Origin: an uncultured Alistipes sp.
GTDB taxonomy: Bacteria; Bacteroidota; Bacteroidia; Bacteroidales; Rikenellaceae
NCBI GenBank assembly: GCA_944323075.1
Contig: CALURC010000016.1
Location: 1-64,000 of the forward strand
Direction: 5' to 3'
Length of the DNA stretch: 64,000 nt
Below the pieces are notes generated by a model. It did no database searches. It saw only the letters and a list, made by a program, of their open reading frames with translations, and was not told the origin of the DNA. Shown here piece by piece: positions 16,850 to 24,274 of the stretch (position 1 is the first letter of the stretch; the number at the start of each line of letters is the position of its first letter). The translations under genes and the position numbers were made by a program.

Positions 16850-16886
16850 ATGCGATCCGGTTGACTAACAACCGGATCGCATGAAC
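16850..16886 (-). terminator. Terminator of the DUF308 gene
   Basis: ATGCGATCCGGTTG / CAACCGGATCGCAT with loop ACTAA. Read on the minus strand it is followed by a T-rich stretch (TTTATTATATTG), and it lies about 50 bases after the stop codon of the minus-strand gene. Confidence 0.75.
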
Positions 16887-16935: not shown

Positions 16936-17457
16936 TTAATTCTGTTGCTTTCTGAACCGAAGTTCATTGACCAAACCGGCTATACCATAAACGATACATG
17001 TAACACCAGAAAGGATCAATATCGACTGAGCAACCGCTTGTGCATTAAACAGTACGATAATTCCGCATATTGTCACCAACACCGGTACTATATAGAAATA
17101 AATCGACACTTCAGTCCATTTACGCGCCGAAAACAGCATCATAATTTGTTGTAAACCTGCGACTACAAGCACGACACCCAAAACAAACATGAGTATCCCG
17201 ACAAAGAACTTTGGAGCTACGACCAGCAAAAGACCCAACAAAAAGCTCCCAGCTCCTTCGATCGGGAAACGTACATTAGGATAGACGGACTTGTCTCGTG
17301 CAAAATAGGCAGCAATCGCAACGACTCCGGCAGCAAGGAACAGAGCCCCCATCGCAATTACCAATATATCCAAAGCGTTATCGGGCCACAACACGAGCAT
17401 CAGCCCCAACACGACAGCCAACACGCTGCGCAGAATCGATTTGTTTACACTTTTCAT
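16936..17457 (-). CDS. DUF308 / HdeD-like membrane protein
   Basis: 173 residues from ATG 17457; an in-frame ATG at 17484 falls inside the promoter, so the shorter form is preferred. Six hydrophobic segments in pairs, with DNALDILVIAMGALFLAAGV and GAGSFLLGLLLVVAPKFFVG showing the repeated HdeD pattern. E. coli HdeD is linked to acid stress; the function here is unknown. Single-gene transcript with its own promoter and terminator. Confidence 0.85.
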   Translation of the reverse strand: MKSVNKSILRSVLAVVLGLMLVLWPDNALDILVIAMGALFLAAGVVAIAAYFARDKSVYPNVRFPIEGAGSFLLGLLLVVAPKFFVGILMFVLGVVLVVAGLQQIMMLFSARKWTEVSIYFYIVPVLVTICGIIVLFNAQAVAQSILILSGVTCIVYGIAGLVNELRFRKQQN

Positions 17458-17677: not shown

Positions 17678-17708
17678 TTTGTTTTTCTCATTCGACTTAC
17701 TACATTTG
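17678..17708 (+). promoter_or_regulatory. Promoter of the tryptophan operon
   Basis: TTTG (17678-17681), 19-base spacer, TACATTTG (17701-17708), an exact Bacteroidetes promoter. Transcription should begin near 17713-17716, only a few bases before the leader peptide start. Confidence 0.85.
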
Positions 17709-17722
17709 CCTACACAAATGTC

Positions 17723-17791
17723 ATGCAAAAAATGAAAGTGATCGTTTCAAATAGATGGTGGTGGCGCAGCTTACAACTTCCTCAGTCGTAA
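17723..17791 (+). CDS. trpL: trp operon leader peptide (three consecutive Trp codons)
   Basis: A 22-codon frame from ATG 17723 (or 19 codons from ATG 17732), ending TAA at 17789. It reads MKVIVSNRWWWRSLQLPQS from 17732. Three TGG codons stand together at 17756-17764; Trp is the rarest residue and the operon makes tryptophan. The frame lies between an exact promoter and a strong terminator, 125 bases upstream of trpB. Function: the ribosome stalls on TGG when charged tRNA-Trp is scarce, which selects the antiterminator fold. No clear Shine-Dalgarno, as usual in this phylum. Confidence 0.85.
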   Translation: MQKMKVIVSNRWWWRSLQLPQS

Positions 17792-17877
17792 GGTTGCGGA
17801 CTTGCGTATCTATTTCTCGATCTCGAACAAGCAATAAAGATATAAAAGCCCTGTCGTACTTACGACAGGGCTTTTTT
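17765..17877 (+). promoter_or_regulatory. trp attenuator (alternative RNA folds)
   Basis: Arm 1 (17765-17774, CGCAGCTTAC) can pair with arm 2 (17788-17798, GTAAGGTTGCG) with one bulge. Arm 2 can instead pair, as 17781-17792, with 17859-17870, the 3' side of the terminator hairpin: 11 pairs including one G-U, with one A-A mismatch. A ribosome stalled on the Trp codons covers arm 1, freeing arm 2 and blocking the terminator. A ribosome reaching the stop codon, which lies inside arm 2, lets the terminator form. This is the E. coli trp logic, deduced from the sequence. Confidence 0.8.
17844..17877 (+). terminator. Attenuator terminator hairpin
   Basis: AGCCCTGTCGTA / TACGACAGGGCT with a minimal loop, followed by TTTTTT. 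It lies 39 bases before trpB and downstream of the leader peptide. Confidence 0.9.
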
Positions 17878-17915
17878 CGTTAACCGCAATTTCAAATTCA
17901 AAAAAACTCATACCG

Positions 17916-19100
17916 ATGAAAAAAACATTTCAAGTAGACGAAAATGGTTACTACGGCCCCTTCGGAGGAGCCTTCATTCCAGAGATTCTTCACAAATGTG
18001 TCGATGAGCTTCGCGAAAACTACCTGCCCATCATGGAGAGCGAATCGTTCCAGAAGGAGTTTAACCTACTGCTCAACGACTATGCGGGACGCCCGTCTCC
18101 GCTCTACTTTGCACCCCGGCTCTCCGAACGCTACGGATGCAAAATCTACCTCAAACGGGAAGATCTGAACCACACGGGAGCCCACAAAATCAACAATACG
18201 ATCGGCCAGATCCTGATCGCCCAGCGGATGGGCAAGAGCCGGATCATCGCCGAAACGGGTGCCGGCCAGCATGGAGTGGCAACGGCTACTGTCTGCGCCA
18301 TGAAAAACATGGAGTGTATCGTCTACATGGGAAAGACCGATGTCGAACGTCAGTACACGAATGTTCAGAAGATGCGGATGCTGGGTGCTGAGGTACGGCC
18401 GGTGACCTCGGGCAACATGACCCTCAAAGATGCGACGAACGAAGCGATCCGCGACTGGTGCTGCCATCCGACCGACACCCACTACATCATCGGATCGACC
18501 GTCGGCCCACACCCCTATCCCGACATCGTAGCCCGGCTGCAATCGGTTATCAGCAAGGAGATCCACAGCCAGATCCTCGAGAAGGAGGGCCGCGACTATC
18601 CGGACTACCTGATCGCCTGCGTCGGAGGCGGAAGCAATGCGGCGGGAACCGTATACCACTATGTAGACGACGACCGGGTCAAGATCGTTCTGGCCGAAGC
18701 CGGCGGTGAGGGCATCACCTCGGGCCGATCGGCAGCCACCATCCAGTTGGGCCGCGTAGGAATCATTCACGGATCGCGGACACTAGTCATGCAGAACGAG
18801 GACGGCCAGATCGAAGAACCCTACTCCATCTCGGCCGGATTAGACTATCCGGGCATCGGTCCGATCCATGCCAATATGGCCAAAGAGAAACGGGCGCGTG
18901 TCCTCGCCATAAACGACGATGAAGCCTTAAAGGCCGCCTTCGAACTGACCCGTCTCGAGGGGATCATTCCGGCACTCGAATCGGCCCACGCACTGGGAGC
19001 TCTGCCGAAAATCAAATTCAAACCGAACGACGTTGTCGTGTTGACCGTATCAGGTCGAGGCGACAAAGATATCGAAACCTATATTCGTCACATGTCATGA
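17916..19100 (+). CDS. trpB: Tryptophan synthase beta subunit
   Basis: 394 residues, full length. It condenses indole with L-serine to form tryptophan, using pyridoxal phosphate. The PLP Lys lies in [12 protein letters not shown] (about 86), and the phosphate-binding loop is [25 protein letters not shown] at the N-terminus and [13 protein letters not shown] are strict family signatures. First structural gene after the attenuator, so all trp genes depend on it. Its stop codon overlaps the trpE start (ATGA), which suggests translational coupling. Having trpB first and trpA last is the usual Bacteroidetes order. Confidence 0.98.
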
Positions 19101-20503
19101 AAACATTCGCATATAAAACCACCAGTAAACAGGTGCTCGGAGATCTGCACTCTCCGGTGAGCATCTTTCTGAAGACGCGGGACGTCTACCCGCAATCGGC
19201 CCTCTTGGAGAGCTCCGATTTCCACGCCGGAGAGAACTCCCTCTCCTACATCGCCCTGTGTCCGTTGGCCCGTTTCGAGATCAATGCCGGAGTCTGCTCG
19301 AATCACCTGCCCGACCGCTCCGTCGAACACAAAAAACTGACCCGGGAGTACAACGCTACCAACGCCCTGAACGAATTTCTCGAACGATTCCACGTCGAAG
19401 GAAAATATGCCGACCGTTGCGGACTCTTCGGATACACGGCGTTCGATGCGATCCGATACTTCGAGGAGATTCCGGTCATGGAGAGCCACGACGAACGCAA
19501 CGACGCTCCGGACATGACCTACATCCTCTACAAATATCTGATCATCTTCAACCACTTCAAGAACGAATTGACCCTGATCGAACTGCATGAGCCGGACGAA
19601 CACCCCCACCTGCACGAACTCGAAAGCCTGATTAACAATCGAAATTTCGCCTCGTACGATTTTTCGCTGCGCGGCGAAGAGTACAGCACGATTACAGACG
19701 AAGAGTATCGGGAGTTCGTTCGCAAAGGGGTAGCCCACTGTCTGCGGGGCGACGTCTTTCAGATTGTCCTCTCCCGACGCTTCGTTCAACCCTTTGCAGG
19801 CGACGATTTTAAGGTATACCGGGCTCTGCGCAGCATCAACCCGTCGCCCTATCTCTTCTACTTCGATTTCGGAGGCATCCGCATCTTCGGTTCATCACCC
19901 GAGACCCACTGCAAAATTACCGACGGCATCGCCAGCATCGACCCGATCGCCGGTACCACCCGCAGGACGGGAGATGCCGTAAAAGACAAACAGCTGACCG
20001 AAAAGTTGCTGCACGACCCGAAAGAGAATGCGGAACACGTCATGCTGGTCGACCTAGCCCGAAACGATCTGAGCCGGAACACCCGAAACGTAAAGGTCGA
20101 ATTCTACATGGAGCCCCAGTATTACAGCCACGTCATACACCTCGTGTCGCGGGTCAGCGGAGAGATCGAGCCGGGGAGCAATCCGATCAAAACGTTCGTC
20201 GACACCTTCCCTGCCGGTACGCTGAGCGGAGCCCCGAAGGTACGGGCCATGCAGCTGATCTCGGAGATCGAGCCGCACAACCGGGGCGCTTACGGTGGTT
20301 GCATCGGTTTCATCGGACTCAACGGCAACCTGAACCAAGCCATAACGATCCGTACGTTCGTCAGCCGCAACAACGAGCTTTGGTATCAGGCCGGTGCGGG
20401 AATCGTCGCACACAGCATTCCGGAAAACGAATTACAGGAGGTCAACAACAAGCTCGGCGCTCTGAAAAAAGCGATCGACATGGCCGTCACCCTTAAAAAC
20501 TAA
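19097..20503 (+). CDS. trpE: Anthranilate synthase component I
   Basis: 468 residues. It converts chorismate to anthranilate, with TrpG supplying ammonia from glutamine. The N-terminal part has the LLES-type motif ([15 protein letters not shown]), which in TrpE binds tryptophan for feedback inhibition. The chorismate-binding domain fills the C-terminal 270 residues: [54 protein letters not shown] and [11 protein letters not shown]. It overlaps trpB by four bases and is followed by trpG after four bases. Confidence 0.97.
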
Positions 20504-20507
20504 AGCC

Positions 20508-21074
20508 ATGAAAGTTCTATTATTCGACAATTACGACTCGTTCACATACAATTTACTGCATATCCTCAAAGAGATAGGAGTCTCCACGGAGGTTTACCGC
20601 AACGACCGGATTACACTCGACGAGGTGGAACGTTTCGACAAGATCATCCTCTCGCCCGGACCGGGAATTCCCGAAGAGGCCGGCATTCTGCTTCCGCTGA
20701 TCCGCCGGTACGCCCCGTATAAAAGCATACTCGGTGTCTGCCTCGGCGAACAGGCCATCGGTGAAGCCTTTGGGGCTTCGCTCGAAAACCTGTCCGAGGT
20801 CTACCACGGAGTCCAGACTCCGGTCAAGCTCGTCGCCCCCGACTACCTTTTCGACGGCATGGAAGAAACATTGATGGTCGGACGGTACCACTCGTGGGTC
20901 GTACGCCGCAGCGGTCTACCCGACTGCCTCACGGTCACGGCAGAGGACGAAGAGGGTCGCATCATGGCCCTGCGCCACAAAACGTACGACGTACACGGAG
21001 TCCAATTTCACCCCGAGTCGATTCTCACCCCTCAGGGGAAAAGAGTCGTCGAAAACTTTATCAACCATCGCTAA
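20508..21074 (+). CDS. trpG: Anthranilate synthase component II (glutamine amidotransferase)
   Basis: 188 residues, a class I glutamine amidotransferase. Nucleophile Cys in GVCLGEQAIGEAFG (about 80), catalytic His and Glu in VHGVQFHPESILT. FDNYDSFTYN at the start is typical. Glu stands in GVCLGEQ where many TrpG proteins have His, a position outside the catalytic triad. Separate from trpD here, unlike the trpGD fusion of enterics. A dual role with PabB is possible, because no pabA is seen in the window. Confidence 0.96.
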   Translation: MKVLLFDNYDSFTYNLLHILKEIGVSTEVYRNDRITLDEVERFDKIILSPGPGIPEEAGILLPLIRRYAPYKSILGVCLGEQAIGEAFGASLENLSEVYHGVQTPVKLVAPDYLFDGMEETLMVGRYHSWVVRRSGLPDCLTVTAEDEEGRIMALRHKTYDVHGVQFHPESILTPQGKRVVENFINHR

Positions 21075-21088
21075 ACGCATGAAACACC

Positions 21089-22084
21089 ATGAAACAGATT
21101 CTTTATAAGCTGTTCGAACACCGGTATCTCGATCGCAAAGAGGCTCGAGACATCCTTCAGAACATCGCGAACGGTCGATACAACAATGCACAGGTGGCCT
21201 CATTGATTACGGTCTTTCTGATGCGCAACATCTCCGTCGAAGAGCTGATCGGTTTCCGCGAGGCACTGCTCGAAATGTGCCATCGGGTCGACCTGAGCGA
21301 ATTCAATCCGATCGACATCGTCGGTACAGGCGGTGACGGCAAAAACACGTTCAACATATCAACGTGCGCCTGTTTCACCGTAGCCGGAGCCGGCTATCCG
21401 GTCGTCAAACACGGCAACTACGGCGCTACGTCGGTCAGCGGAGCCAGCAACGTCATGGAGCAGCACGGCGTCCGTTTTACCACCGACGACGACGCCTTGA
21501 GGCGATCGATCGACCGGTGCAACATCGCCTACCTGCACGCCCCGCTCTTCAACAAAGCGCTGAAGGCCGTCGCCCCGATCCGCAAGGAGTTAGGTGTCCG
21601 CACTTTCTTCAACATTCTGGGGCCGTTAGTCAACCCCGTCATTCCGAAATACCAACTGCTGGGTGTCTACAACCTGTCGCTGCTCCGGCTCTACACCTAC
21701 ACCTATCAGGAGAGCGGAACACAGTTCGCCGTAGTCCACAGCCTCGACGGATACGACGAGATTTCGCTTACGGACGACTTCAAGGTAGCCATGCCGAACA
21801 GCGAAAAACTGTACACCCCCGAAGATCTGGGTTTCCACCGCATCGAGGAGCAAGCGCTATATGGCGGGGAGACACCCCAAGAGGCCTCGAAGATTTTCGA
21901 CCGGGTACTCGATGGCACCGCTCTGCCCGAACAGAAGAACTGCGTCATCGCCAACGCGGCATTCGCCATACAGGTCATTTGTCCCCAGAAACCGATCGAC
22001 GAGTGTATTGCTGAAGCCCGGGAGTCGCTCGAGAGCGGGAAAGCCCTCGCCACATTCAAAAAATTCATCGAACTGAACAGTTAG
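21089..22084 (+). CDS. trpD: Anthranilate phosphoribosyltransferase
   Basis: 331 residues. It joins anthranilate with PRPP. Signature loop DIVGTGGDGKNTFNIST (about 75-91) binds PRPP; VVKHGNYGATSVSGASNVME and the later RTFFNILGPLVNPV are family-specific. Starts 14 bases after trpG and ends 7 bases before trpC. Confidence 0.97.
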   Translation: MKQILYKLFEHRYLDRKEARDILQNIANGRYNNAQVASLITVFLMRNISVEELIGFREALLEMCHRVDLSEFNPIDIVGTGGDGKNTFNISTCACFTVAGAGYPVVKHGNYGATSVSGASNVMEQHGVRFTTDDDALRRSIDRCNIAYLHAPLFNKALKAVAPIRKELGVRTFFNILGPLVNPVIPKYQLLGVYNLSLLRLYTYTYQESGTQFAVVHSLDGYDEISLTDDFKVAMPNSEKLYTPEDLGFHRIEEQALYGGETPQEASKIFDRVLDGTALPEQKNCVIANAAFAIQVICPQKPIDECIAEARESLESGKALATFKKFIELNS

Positions 22085-22091
22085 CCGAACC

Positions 22092-22877
22092 ATGAAAGAT
22101 ATTTTGCAAGAGATCGTCGCAACAAAGAGAGCCGAGGTCGACCGGAGGAAACGGGAAACGGATCTTCAGGCCCTCTACCGACAAGCCGAAACCCCGCGTA
22201 CCACACGCCACTCTCTGCGGGAAGCCCTGTGCTCCTCCTCGACGGGGATTATATCCGAATTCAAACGTCGCTCTCCGTCGAAAGGCTGGATTAACCGTGA
22301 AGCCGACGTACAAAGCGTCGTTCGTGCCTACCAGCAGGCCGGAGCAACGGCCCTGTCCGTCCTGACCGACACGCCCTATTTCGGGGGTACGGACGACGAC
22401 CTGCGAGCCGCCAGACAGGTGTGCTCTCTCCCGATTCTCCGCAAAGACTTCACGATCGACGAGTTTCAGTTGGTAGAGAGTCGAGCACTTGGAGCCGATG
22501 CTGTGCTCCTAATTGCTGCAGCCCTGACCCGTGAGCAATGCCGCCGGTTAGCTGAGACAGCACATCAATTAGAACTTGAGGTACTGCTCGAAATACACGA
22601 TCAATCAGAGCTGGACTACTGTTCAGAGTATATCGACGTACTCGGCGTAAATAACCGCAATCTCGGATCCTTTCACACCGACGTAGCAAACTCCTTCCGA
22701 CTGATCGAGCAGATGCCCCAAGAGGCAACCCCGATCTCCGAAAGCGGCATATCGAATCCGGACACCGTAAAAGAGTTGCGAGCCATCGGATTCAAAGGGT
22801 TTCTGATCGGCGAAAATTTCATGAAAACCGAAGCCCCGGGAGACTCTCTCAAAAGCTTTATTAACGCTTTAAATTAA
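22092..22877 (+). CDS. trpC: Indole-3-glycerol-phosphate synthase
   Basis: 261 residues, a TIM barrel. Catalytic Lys in ISEFKRRSPSKGWIN, second Lys in PILRKDFTID, and the Glu of ESGISNPDT. VLGVNNRNLGSF is a further family mark. A stand-alone enzyme, not fused to trpF. Codons 130-170 (22480-22600) use less common codons than the rest of the operon, with no change in the conserved protein pattern. Confidence 0.97.
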   Translation: MKDILQEIVATKRAEVDRRKRETDLQALYRQAETPRTTRHSLREALCSSSTGIISEFKRRSPSKGWINREADVQSVVRAYQQAGATALSVLTDTPYFGGTDDDLRAARQVCSLPILRKDFTIDEFQLVESRALGADAVLLIAAALTREQCRRLAETAHQLELEVLLEIHDQSELDYCSEYIDVLGVNNRNLGSFHTDVANSFRLIEQMPQEATPISESGISNPDTVKELRAIGFKGFLIGENFMKTEAPGDSLKSFINALN

Positions 22878-22884
22878 CAGACCT

Positions 22885-23496
22885 ATGATCGTGAAAGTGT
22901 GCGGCATGAGAGACCCGGAAAACATTCGAAACATCGAGCAGACCGGCATCGACTGGATGGGCTTCATCTTCTATCCGGCCTCGTTGCGATACGTTCCGAA
23001 ACGTCCGGAATATTTACCGAAAAAGGTCAAACGGGTCGGAGTTTTCGTAAACGAAAGCATGAAAGAGATACTTTCGATAACTGATCTATTTCAACTGGAT
23101 TACATTCAGTTGCACGGACATGAATCACCCGATTTTTGCCGCATGCTCGAAACGCGTGGTTTGCGAACGATCAAAGCCTTTCCGATCGCCACGGCCGAAG
23201 ACTTTCAGGCAACCGTGCCCTATTCAGGGTGCTGTACCTACTTTCTGTTCGACACAAAAACTCCTGCGCACGGAGGTAGCGGACAGAAATTCGACTGGGG
23301 TCTGCTCGACTCTTATCGCGGAAACACCCCATTTTTGCTGAGTGGCGGAATAGGAGTCGAAGACACAGAAAAGTTAAAAACCATTAACAATAAGCATCTT
23401 ATAGGTTTCGATATAAATAGTCGCTTTGAGTCAACTCCGGGACTGAAACAGGTCGATACGGTACGCAAATTCGTTGAACAAATCAAAAAACATTAA
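22885..23496 (+). CDS. trpF: Phosphoribosylanthranilate isomerase
   Basis: 203 residues. Catalytic Cys in [12 protein letters not shown] at the N-terminus; general acid Asp probably in [40 protein letters not shown] and [10 protein letters not shown] are conserved. It performs the Amadori step between TrpD and TrpC. Seven bases after trpC. Confidence 0.96.
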
Positions 23497-23500
23497 GGAT

Positions 23501-24274
23501 ATGAATCGCATCAACAAACTTTTCCAACAAAAAAAGGAGGGCATTCTCTCCATCTATTTCTGTGCGGGCACTCCGACACTCGACAGCACCGCCGAAACGA
23601 TCCACACGCTTCAGGACCACGGGGTCGACATGATCGAAATCGGCATTCCGTTCAGTGATCCGATGGCCGACGGAGCAGTCATTCAGGGTGCAGCGACACA
23701 TGCCCTGCGCAACGGCATGAGCCTCAAACTGCTTTTCGAACAGTTGAAAGAGATTCGTCAAACGGTCGACATTCCGTTGATTCTGATGGGCTATCTGAAC
23801 CCGATCATGCAATTCGGATTTGAGAATTTTTGTCGCAAATGTGCCGAATACGGCATCGATGGCTGCATTATCCCCGATCTACCCTTCCGCGAATACATGG
23901 AACACTATCGGGAAACAGCCCAACGGTACGACGTAAAGGTCATCATGCTGATTACTCCGGAGACGGATGACGAACGCATCCGCCAAATCGATGCCCACAC
24001 GGACGGATTCATCTATATGGTTTCGTCAGCCGCTACGACTGGAGCCCAACGGAGTTTCGACGAACAGAAACAGGCCTATTTCCGACACATCCACTCAATG
24101 GGGTTACGAAACCCCTGCATGATCGGATTCGGCATATCGAATGCCGAGACCTTCCGTTCTGCCTGCGAAAACGCATCGGGAGCCATTATCGGCAGTAAAT
24201 TCGTTTCGCTGCTCGAGGAGGAAGGGAAGCCGGGACCGGCCATCGAGAAGCTGTTAAAGGCCCTCGGCAAATAG
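23501..24274 (+). CDS. trpA: Tryptophan synthase alpha subunit
   Basis: 257 residues from ATG 23501, four bases after the trpF stop; an in-frame ATG at 23474 overlaps trpF. Catalytic Glu in [20 protein letters not shown] and Asp in [12 protein letters not shown]. The phosphate-binding glycines are in [11 protein letters not shown] and [10 protein letters not shown]. It cleaves indole-3-glycerol phosphate and passes indole to TrpB. Last gene of the operon. Confidence 0.97.

Follow-up and report, generated by a model that had tools for sequence, protein, structure and literature searches.

A probable Bacteroid-trp (RF01692) leader-peptide attenuator in Alistipes with a predicted antiterminator on the loop and 3' side of its terminator

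The region upstream of the tryptophan operon in an uncultured Alistipes sp. raises the question of whether transcription of the operon is governed by a translated leader peptide and, if so, on which side the terminator is captured by the competing helix. We addressed this in a 64,000-nucleotide stretch of contig CALURC010000016.1, called the window here, from a 2.5-Mb source genome of 96% completeness belonging to a family that we take to be the Rikenellaceae. The leader is followed by trpB, trpE, trpG, trpD, trpC, trpF and trpA, a complete trp operon. The curated cut-offs were exceeded by trpD, trpC, trpA and the TrpG/PabA subfamily, and trpE and trpF had their own families as best hits but fell below the NCBIfam cut-offs. 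The closest named relative of TrpB, among the best 80 of 339 loci, was that of Candidatus Alistipes merdigallinarum (locus L003, 96%). On the minus strand, divergent from the trp promoter, lies an HdeD-like gene (16936-17454) whose best family hit was below cut-off, with a strong terminator-like hairpin behind it on the same strand (16850-16882).

The promoter, the leader frame with three Trp codons and the terminator could each be read directly where the original prediction had placed them upstream of trpB (Table 1). The promoter pattern TTTG-N19-TACATTTG occurs three times in the window against 0.20 expected, and both of its boxes stand upstream of the leader in 74 of the 102 trpB loci defined below (window counted), with the -7 box present in 22 of the remaining 28. 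Two in-frame ATGs could open the leader. ATG 17732 lies 23 nt after the -7 box and leaves 8 codons before the Trp run, and ATG 17723 lies 14 nt after the box, leaves 11 codons and would give a peptide of 22 residues, MQKMKVIVSNRWWWRSLQLPQS. Where both boxes are present (73 loci), the median distance from the -7 box to the promoter-nearest ATG is 24 nt, and most relatives have an ATG 8-10 codons 5' of the Trp run; because this spacing and codon distance fit ATG 17732, unlike ATG 17723, the former is the likely leader start, downstream of a presumed transcription start. The suggestion that the leader has almost no 5' untranslated part, with nearly leaderless initiation, does not agree with a start at this ordinary spacing. 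Arm 1 lies close behind the Trp codons and the leader stop codon falls within arm 2, both as had been proposed. The terminator hairpin (17844-17875) comprises 14 pairs, and the leader RNA as a whole folds with a z-score of -5.5, none of 200 shuffles being equally stable.

Table 1 Features of the trp leader and operon in the window.
Feature	Position	Strand	Description
Promoter, Bacteroidota type	17678..17708	+	TTTG 17678-17681, 19-nt spacer, TACATTTG 17701-17708
Leader peptide frame	17732..17791	+	Likely start ATG 17732, 19 aa MKVIVSNRWWWRSLQLPQS, stop TAA 17789-17791
P1 5' strand, codons just 5' of the Trp run	17749..17756	+	Pairs 17808-17815
Three adjacent Trp codons	17756..17764	+	TGGTGGTGG, read directly
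Arm 1, CTTAC A ACT	17770..17778	+	Pairs arm 2 across one A.C mismatch
Arm 2, AGTCGTAAG	17784..17792	+	Holds leader stop codon; partners are arm 1, or terminator loop and 3' arm
P1 3' strand	17808..17815	+	Pairs 17749-17756
Terminator 5' arm (arm 3)	17844..17857	+	Hairpin and alignment
Terminator loop	17858-17861	+	Read directly
Loop bases and first 3'-arm bases, CTTACGAC	17859..17866	+	Arm 2 partner in the proposed antiterminator
Terminator 3' arm (arm 4) and U tract	17862..17877	+	3' arm 17862-17875, then T
trpB, first gene of the controlled operon	17916..19100	+	TIGR00263, 566 bits, cut-off 392
trpE, trpG, trpD, trpC, trpF, trpA	19097..24274	+	Family matches

A run of Trp codons is not by itself rare, TGGTGGTGG having one match in the window against 0.43 expected, and the significance of the Trp run and terminator comes instead from their conservation. 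We collected 110 trpB loci, namely the best 80 of 339 named loci and 30 loci from a family search (with matches in 98 of 150 genomes, many by distant paralogues only), the window's own locus included. At least two Trp codons in a run together with a terminator were present in 105 of the 110 (102 kept and 3 duplicates), in agreement with the Trp leader-peptide attenuator that had been proposed. The five exceptions were three loci with no more than 118 bases upstream (L054, L066, L071), one missed by the T-tail filter (L084) and one degraded copy (L076). This last copy, upstream of trpB in a Tannerella sp., has only one Trp codon and a terminator stem with imperfections and is possibly a decaying attenuator. 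Separately, a second TrpB-like gene with 61-66% identity to the query was seen beside the closer copy in genomes G014, G017, G027, G035, G040, G056 and G062.

Eight of the 110 loci (the 3 duplicates, the 3 with short upstream sequence, L076 and L084) were dropped to leave the 102, all of which contain TGGTGG by selection. A similarity filter and a length limit reduced these to 83, and alignment A1 holds 81 leaders, L016 and L082 having been excluded as odd-looking; both have a weak 2:4 helix (arm 2 with the terminator loop and 3' arm), so that the 2:4 counts over 81 leaders given below are slightly favourable. The Trp run of A1 has three codons in 55 and two in 26 of the 81 leaders, a whole-codon difference (at least two having been the condition of selection), and the residues around it are conserved (NTYWWWR, LQL). 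An alignment of relatives had been put forward as the check on the original prediction, and in the 81 aligned leaders the TGG run is conserved and the pairings covary.

The element was also compared with described systems. A gathering-threshold Rfam scan of the window returned tRNAs only and no RF01692 (Bacteroid-trp), because the window lies about 3 bits under the 49-bit gathering cut-off of that family: it scored 45.9 bits (E 1.6e-4) over 131/131 positions. Six of 16 relatives scanned were at or above the cut-off, and L003, L028 and eight loci of the window's family (L087, L089, L093, L096, L099, L101, L107, L109) were below it. Weinberg et al. 2010 (PMC2864571) include RF01692 in their Table 1, and the notion that few such attenuators had been described in the phylum is not borne out. 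The Rfam family shares with the window its phylum, its operon, in-frame Trp codons, P1 and the 1:2 hairpin, and by this anatomy the window element is a member of RF01692, though 3 bits under the cut-off, and ordinary in kind. The model covers P1 and the 1:2 hairpin and stops in the terminator 5' arm, and is therefore without the 3' arm and the 2:4 helix. Against Trp_leader (RF00513), the window scored 13.4 bits (E 5.5), below the cut-off of 41. Work by Lopatovskaya et al. from 2010 may cover Bacteroidetes. In Flavobacterium psychrophilum, leader-peptide clues like those of the window stand before amino-acid operons (PMC9723704) and the trp operon is preceded by Bacteroid-trp (PMC6414381); the accessible parts of these two reports give no alternative pairing. 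Small frames reminiscent of leader peptides are noted for B. thetaiotaomicron in the available text of another study (PMC7366714), and the available text of a 2010 survey states that leader-peptide systems had previously come from Proteobacteria and Actinobacteria only and adds the Firmicutes (PMC2965389). No mechanism for Bacteroid-trp and no 2:4 pairing was found in our literature search, which covered sources in part; 2:4 may already be stated in the supplementary material of Weinberg et al. 2010.

The anatomy of the leader is conserved and all three of its helices, 1:2, 2:4 and 3:4, covary. In A1, 89.4% of cells are paired in the 1:2 helix, with an A.C mismatch in 60 of 81 leaders, and 96.4% in the 3:4 helix. 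The 2:4 helix is paired in 95.5% of cells against 91.0 +/- 0.4 in shuffles, a value that none of 500 shuffles reached, and versions slid out of register gave 24-57%. These values bear out the proposal that arm 2 alternates between arm 1 and the terminator 3' arm. Forty 2:4 cells were changed on both sides against 11.7 in shuffles (0/500), and further pair types in this helix were no more numerous than in shuffles (11 vs 9.8, 123/500). A blind scan over 7,783 column pairs placed 60:154 in 4th position, after three pairs of the terminator stem; the pair joins the middle base of the arm 2 UAA/UGA triplet to a terminator-loop base and is AU in 51, GC in 28 and AA in 2 of the 81 leaders. Among the other 2:4 pairs, 62:152 ranked 46th and the remaining six ranged from 296th to 4,365th, so that the 2:4 covariation depends mainly on the one pair 60:154. 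On a quick TrpB tree, column 60 requires 5 changes, column 154 requires 7 and the two jointly 7, so that every change at column 60 can be placed with one at column 154; the independent pairs of changes number one on strongly supported branches and 5 on all branches.

We then asked what is conserved at the arm 2 triplet. The frame stops there in 60 of 81 leaders, 58 of which retain pair 60:154, and does not stop there in the other 21, all of which retain the pair. Retention in the 21 leaders that do not stop at the triplet suggests that selection acts here on the pairing rather than on the stop codon. Full pairing of loop bases 152-154 is absent from 18 of the 81 leaders, including those with loops CAA and CCT.

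The enteric trp attenuator likewise combines Trp codons, a stop codon in arm 2, alternative hairpins and a terminator, and there the partner of arm 2 is the terminator 5' arm (2:3), whereas arm 2 of the window pairs with the loop and 3' arm. An attenuator with a classical 5'-arm antiterminator would account for the window if the 2:4 complementarity arose merely from the similarity of arm 2 to arm 3. Arm 2 and the terminator 5' arm are nearly identical (GTCGT), and a share of the 2:4 complementarity therefore follows from 3:4 pairing by itself; pairing of arm 2 with the 5' arm is indeed seen in his leaders and, in other families, in several operons that begin with trpE or trpD. However, the strongest covarying 2:4 pair uses a loop base that lies outside the 3:4 helix as drawn, and the energies point the same way. 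In the window the duplex of arm 2 with the terminator 5' arm has -4.6 kcal/mol against -12.5 for 2:4 and -12.8 for 1:2, so that the 2:3 pairing of the enteric type is weak there and the description as enteric-type attenuation is not supported on this point. Over the 102 loci, the 5'-arm pairing is hardly cognate (mean -10.3 for cognate vs -10.1 for non-cognate arms), while pairing with the loop and 3' arm averaged -13.6 for cognate and -12.3 for non-cognate partners, with none of 10,000 permutations as low, and -10.2 for a shuffled 3' stretch. In some Bacteroides loci the best 3'-arm duplex lies in another register. Taken together, we consider a classical antiterminator at the window improbable and prefer the 2:4 geometry.

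The source genome itself offers a comparison outside the window, where a His-rich leader, MIQFSRIHGHHHHLLPSR, and a terminator precede hisG (L202:1474-1660). We examined 30 hisG loci from a family search with matches in 70 of 150 genomes. By a lenient rule (at least three His) a His leader was present in 27 of the 30, and in 24 of these 27 arm 2 paired better with the terminator 5' arm (2:3) than in 2:4. The pairing score was the one applied to the trp loci, and the same scoring therefore returns 2:3 for his and 2:4 for trp. The his leaders (L202, L204-L233) share with the window a leader peptide, a stop codon in arm 2 and a terminator, but mostly have the classical 2:3 arrangement, that of the source genome included. 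At E 0.01, Rfam gave no match for the his leaders L204, L209, L222 and L228, and the L202 leader is a candidate for a Bacteroidota his attenuator absent from Rfam. Two loci from another family of the phylum (L180, L189) have an HHHHH leader before hisG-like genes, and in both arm 2 forms 12-13 bp with the terminator 5' arm and loop; against Thr_leader, L180 scored 39.1 bits, below the cut-off of 55.

Across the phylum, RF01692 matches were found in 30 of 296 sampled genomes (the window's own included), 27 of them over the cut-off. One family of the same class (f6), probably the Flavobacteriaceae, accounts for 27 of the 30 genomes. Arm 2 paired better with the loop and 3' arm in 28 of the 30 loci (L140 being the window) and with the 5' arm and loop in L138 and L141. 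Inspection by eye of the 29 non-window loci revealed a TCGTGA/TCACGA helix in 24 and another register in L116; loop bases are the main match of arm 2 in L136, L139 and L141, and L138 has the 2:3 form. A phylum search with our R1 model matched 57 of 296 genomes at E <= 0.001, a figure that we rejected as a prevalence because 6 of 20 checked matches were not leaders and 2 were His leaders. These 20 matches (L172-L191), inspected beyond the first 30, comprised 12 WWW leaders, the 2 His leaders and the 6 that were not leaders (L172, L179, L183, L186, L187, L188). The 12 WWW leaders precede trpE- or trpD-like genes (named by eye). As judged from single sequences, some with small margins, 2:4 was favoured in L173, L175, L178 and L182 and 2:3 in L174, L176, L177, L181, L184, L185, L190 and L191. 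Since loci favouring either side are present, the side taken by the switch seems to vary between lineages.

The window sequence holds a leader frame with control codons, mutually exclusive helices and an intrinsic terminator, and we consider it very likely that the element is a ribosome-mediated transcription attenuator of the RF01692 family with a 2:4 antiterminator, as predicted from sequence. From this arrangement we infer leader translation, stalling, the direction of control and its kinetic character, as follows. When charged tRNA-Trp is scarce, the ribosome would stall at the Trp codons, open P1 and cover arm 1. The freed arm 2 would pair with the terminator loop and the first 3'-arm bases as these exit RNA polymerase, and the 2:4 helix would keep the terminator open until polymerase has moved past the U tract, allowing trpB to trpA to be transcribed. 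When tryptophan is plentiful, the ribosome would reach the stop codon in arm 2 and cover that arm, 3:4 would form and transcription would end; without translation 1:2 would form first and transcription would also end. Were the ribosome to stall at the first Trp codon, part of arm 1 would stay uncovered. It is conceivable that the outer stem of the terminator forms all the same next to 2:4, giving a pseudoknot.

The order of these events was examined in modelled folding states that exposed either 0 to 12 nt of the 3' arm or its entire length; the ribosome boundary was assumed, and each locus was represented by its best-scoring 8-base helix. With the RNA free only from 10 nt past the last Trp codon, 2:4 exceeded 3:4 in 85 of the 102 loci when 3 nt of the 3' arm were visible, in 95 at 6 nt and in 32 at 9 nt. 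In untranslated RNA, 3:4 exceeded 2:4 in 82, 94 and 102 of 102 loci at the same lengths. With arm 2 covered, which makes 2:4 impossible by construction, the mean 3:4 probability was 0.89 at 6 nt, and with the whole 3' arm out it was 0.97-0.99 in each modelled state. In the folding model 2:4 thus has only a transient advantage, limited to occupied Trp codons and a 3' arm of which 3-6 nt have emerged. Because 3:4 prevails once the whole 3' arm is out, antitermination by 2:4 would have to be kinetic, presumably seeded through the first-emerging loop bases.

The conserved residues around the Trp run could have another origin, namely nascent-peptide arrest as in TnaC, where conserved residues of the leader let free tryptophan act on the ribosome. 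NTYWWWR and LQL are conserved as such arrest would have it, but these residues fall on the strands of P1 and arm 1, where pairing and covariation are seen, and the number of Trp codons varies. TnaC control also runs from high tryptophan to readthrough, which fits degradation and not synthesis, and we regard arrest of this type as very unlikely. Over the 102 loci the cognate mean pairing of P1 beats 10,000 of 10,000 permutations (relatedness not controlled), and P1 could explain at the RNA level why residues 5' of the Trp run are conserved. It appears highly improbable that control comes from a Trp repressor, or from a protein or tRNA working through the leader (TRAP, T-box), and that the small frame has no part in it: such systems are known in other organisms, but an in-frame start codon accompanies the recurring Trp run, and TrpR (PF01371), T-box (RF00230) and TRAP (PF02081) had 0 matches each in the 96% complete source genome. 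Chance, or an unrelated terminator upstream of trpB, can be put aside as next to negligible, since TGGTGGTGG and terminator-like hairpins can each arise by chance but the arrangement recurs in nearly all trpB loci, with covariation.

With the ribosome-mediated attenuator as the preferred reading of the window, we lean, with more reserve, towards a broader one. The trp attenuators of Bacteroidales and of the probable Flavobacteriaceae may carry an inverted switch, in which the antiterminator takes the terminator through its loop and 3' arm and wins by timing, not stability. The arm 2 UAA/UGA triplet, usually the leader stop, would co-evolve with the loop (UAA-UUA, UGA-UCA), and sides would have changed within the phylum, with 2:4 here and 2:3 in several other families and in the his leaders.

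The kind of attenuator is already known, and the geometry of the antiterminator is the part that deserves specialist attention. The reach of RF01692 is extended to the family of the window, whose tested members mostly fall below the cut-off, and RF01692 gains a predicted, covariation-backed antiterminator on the side of the terminator opposite to that of the textbook design. If confirmed, this would provide, in abundant gut bacteria, a natural system for studying how a thermodynamically weaker helix beats a terminator by timing, with the his leader of the same genome as a built-in classical control.
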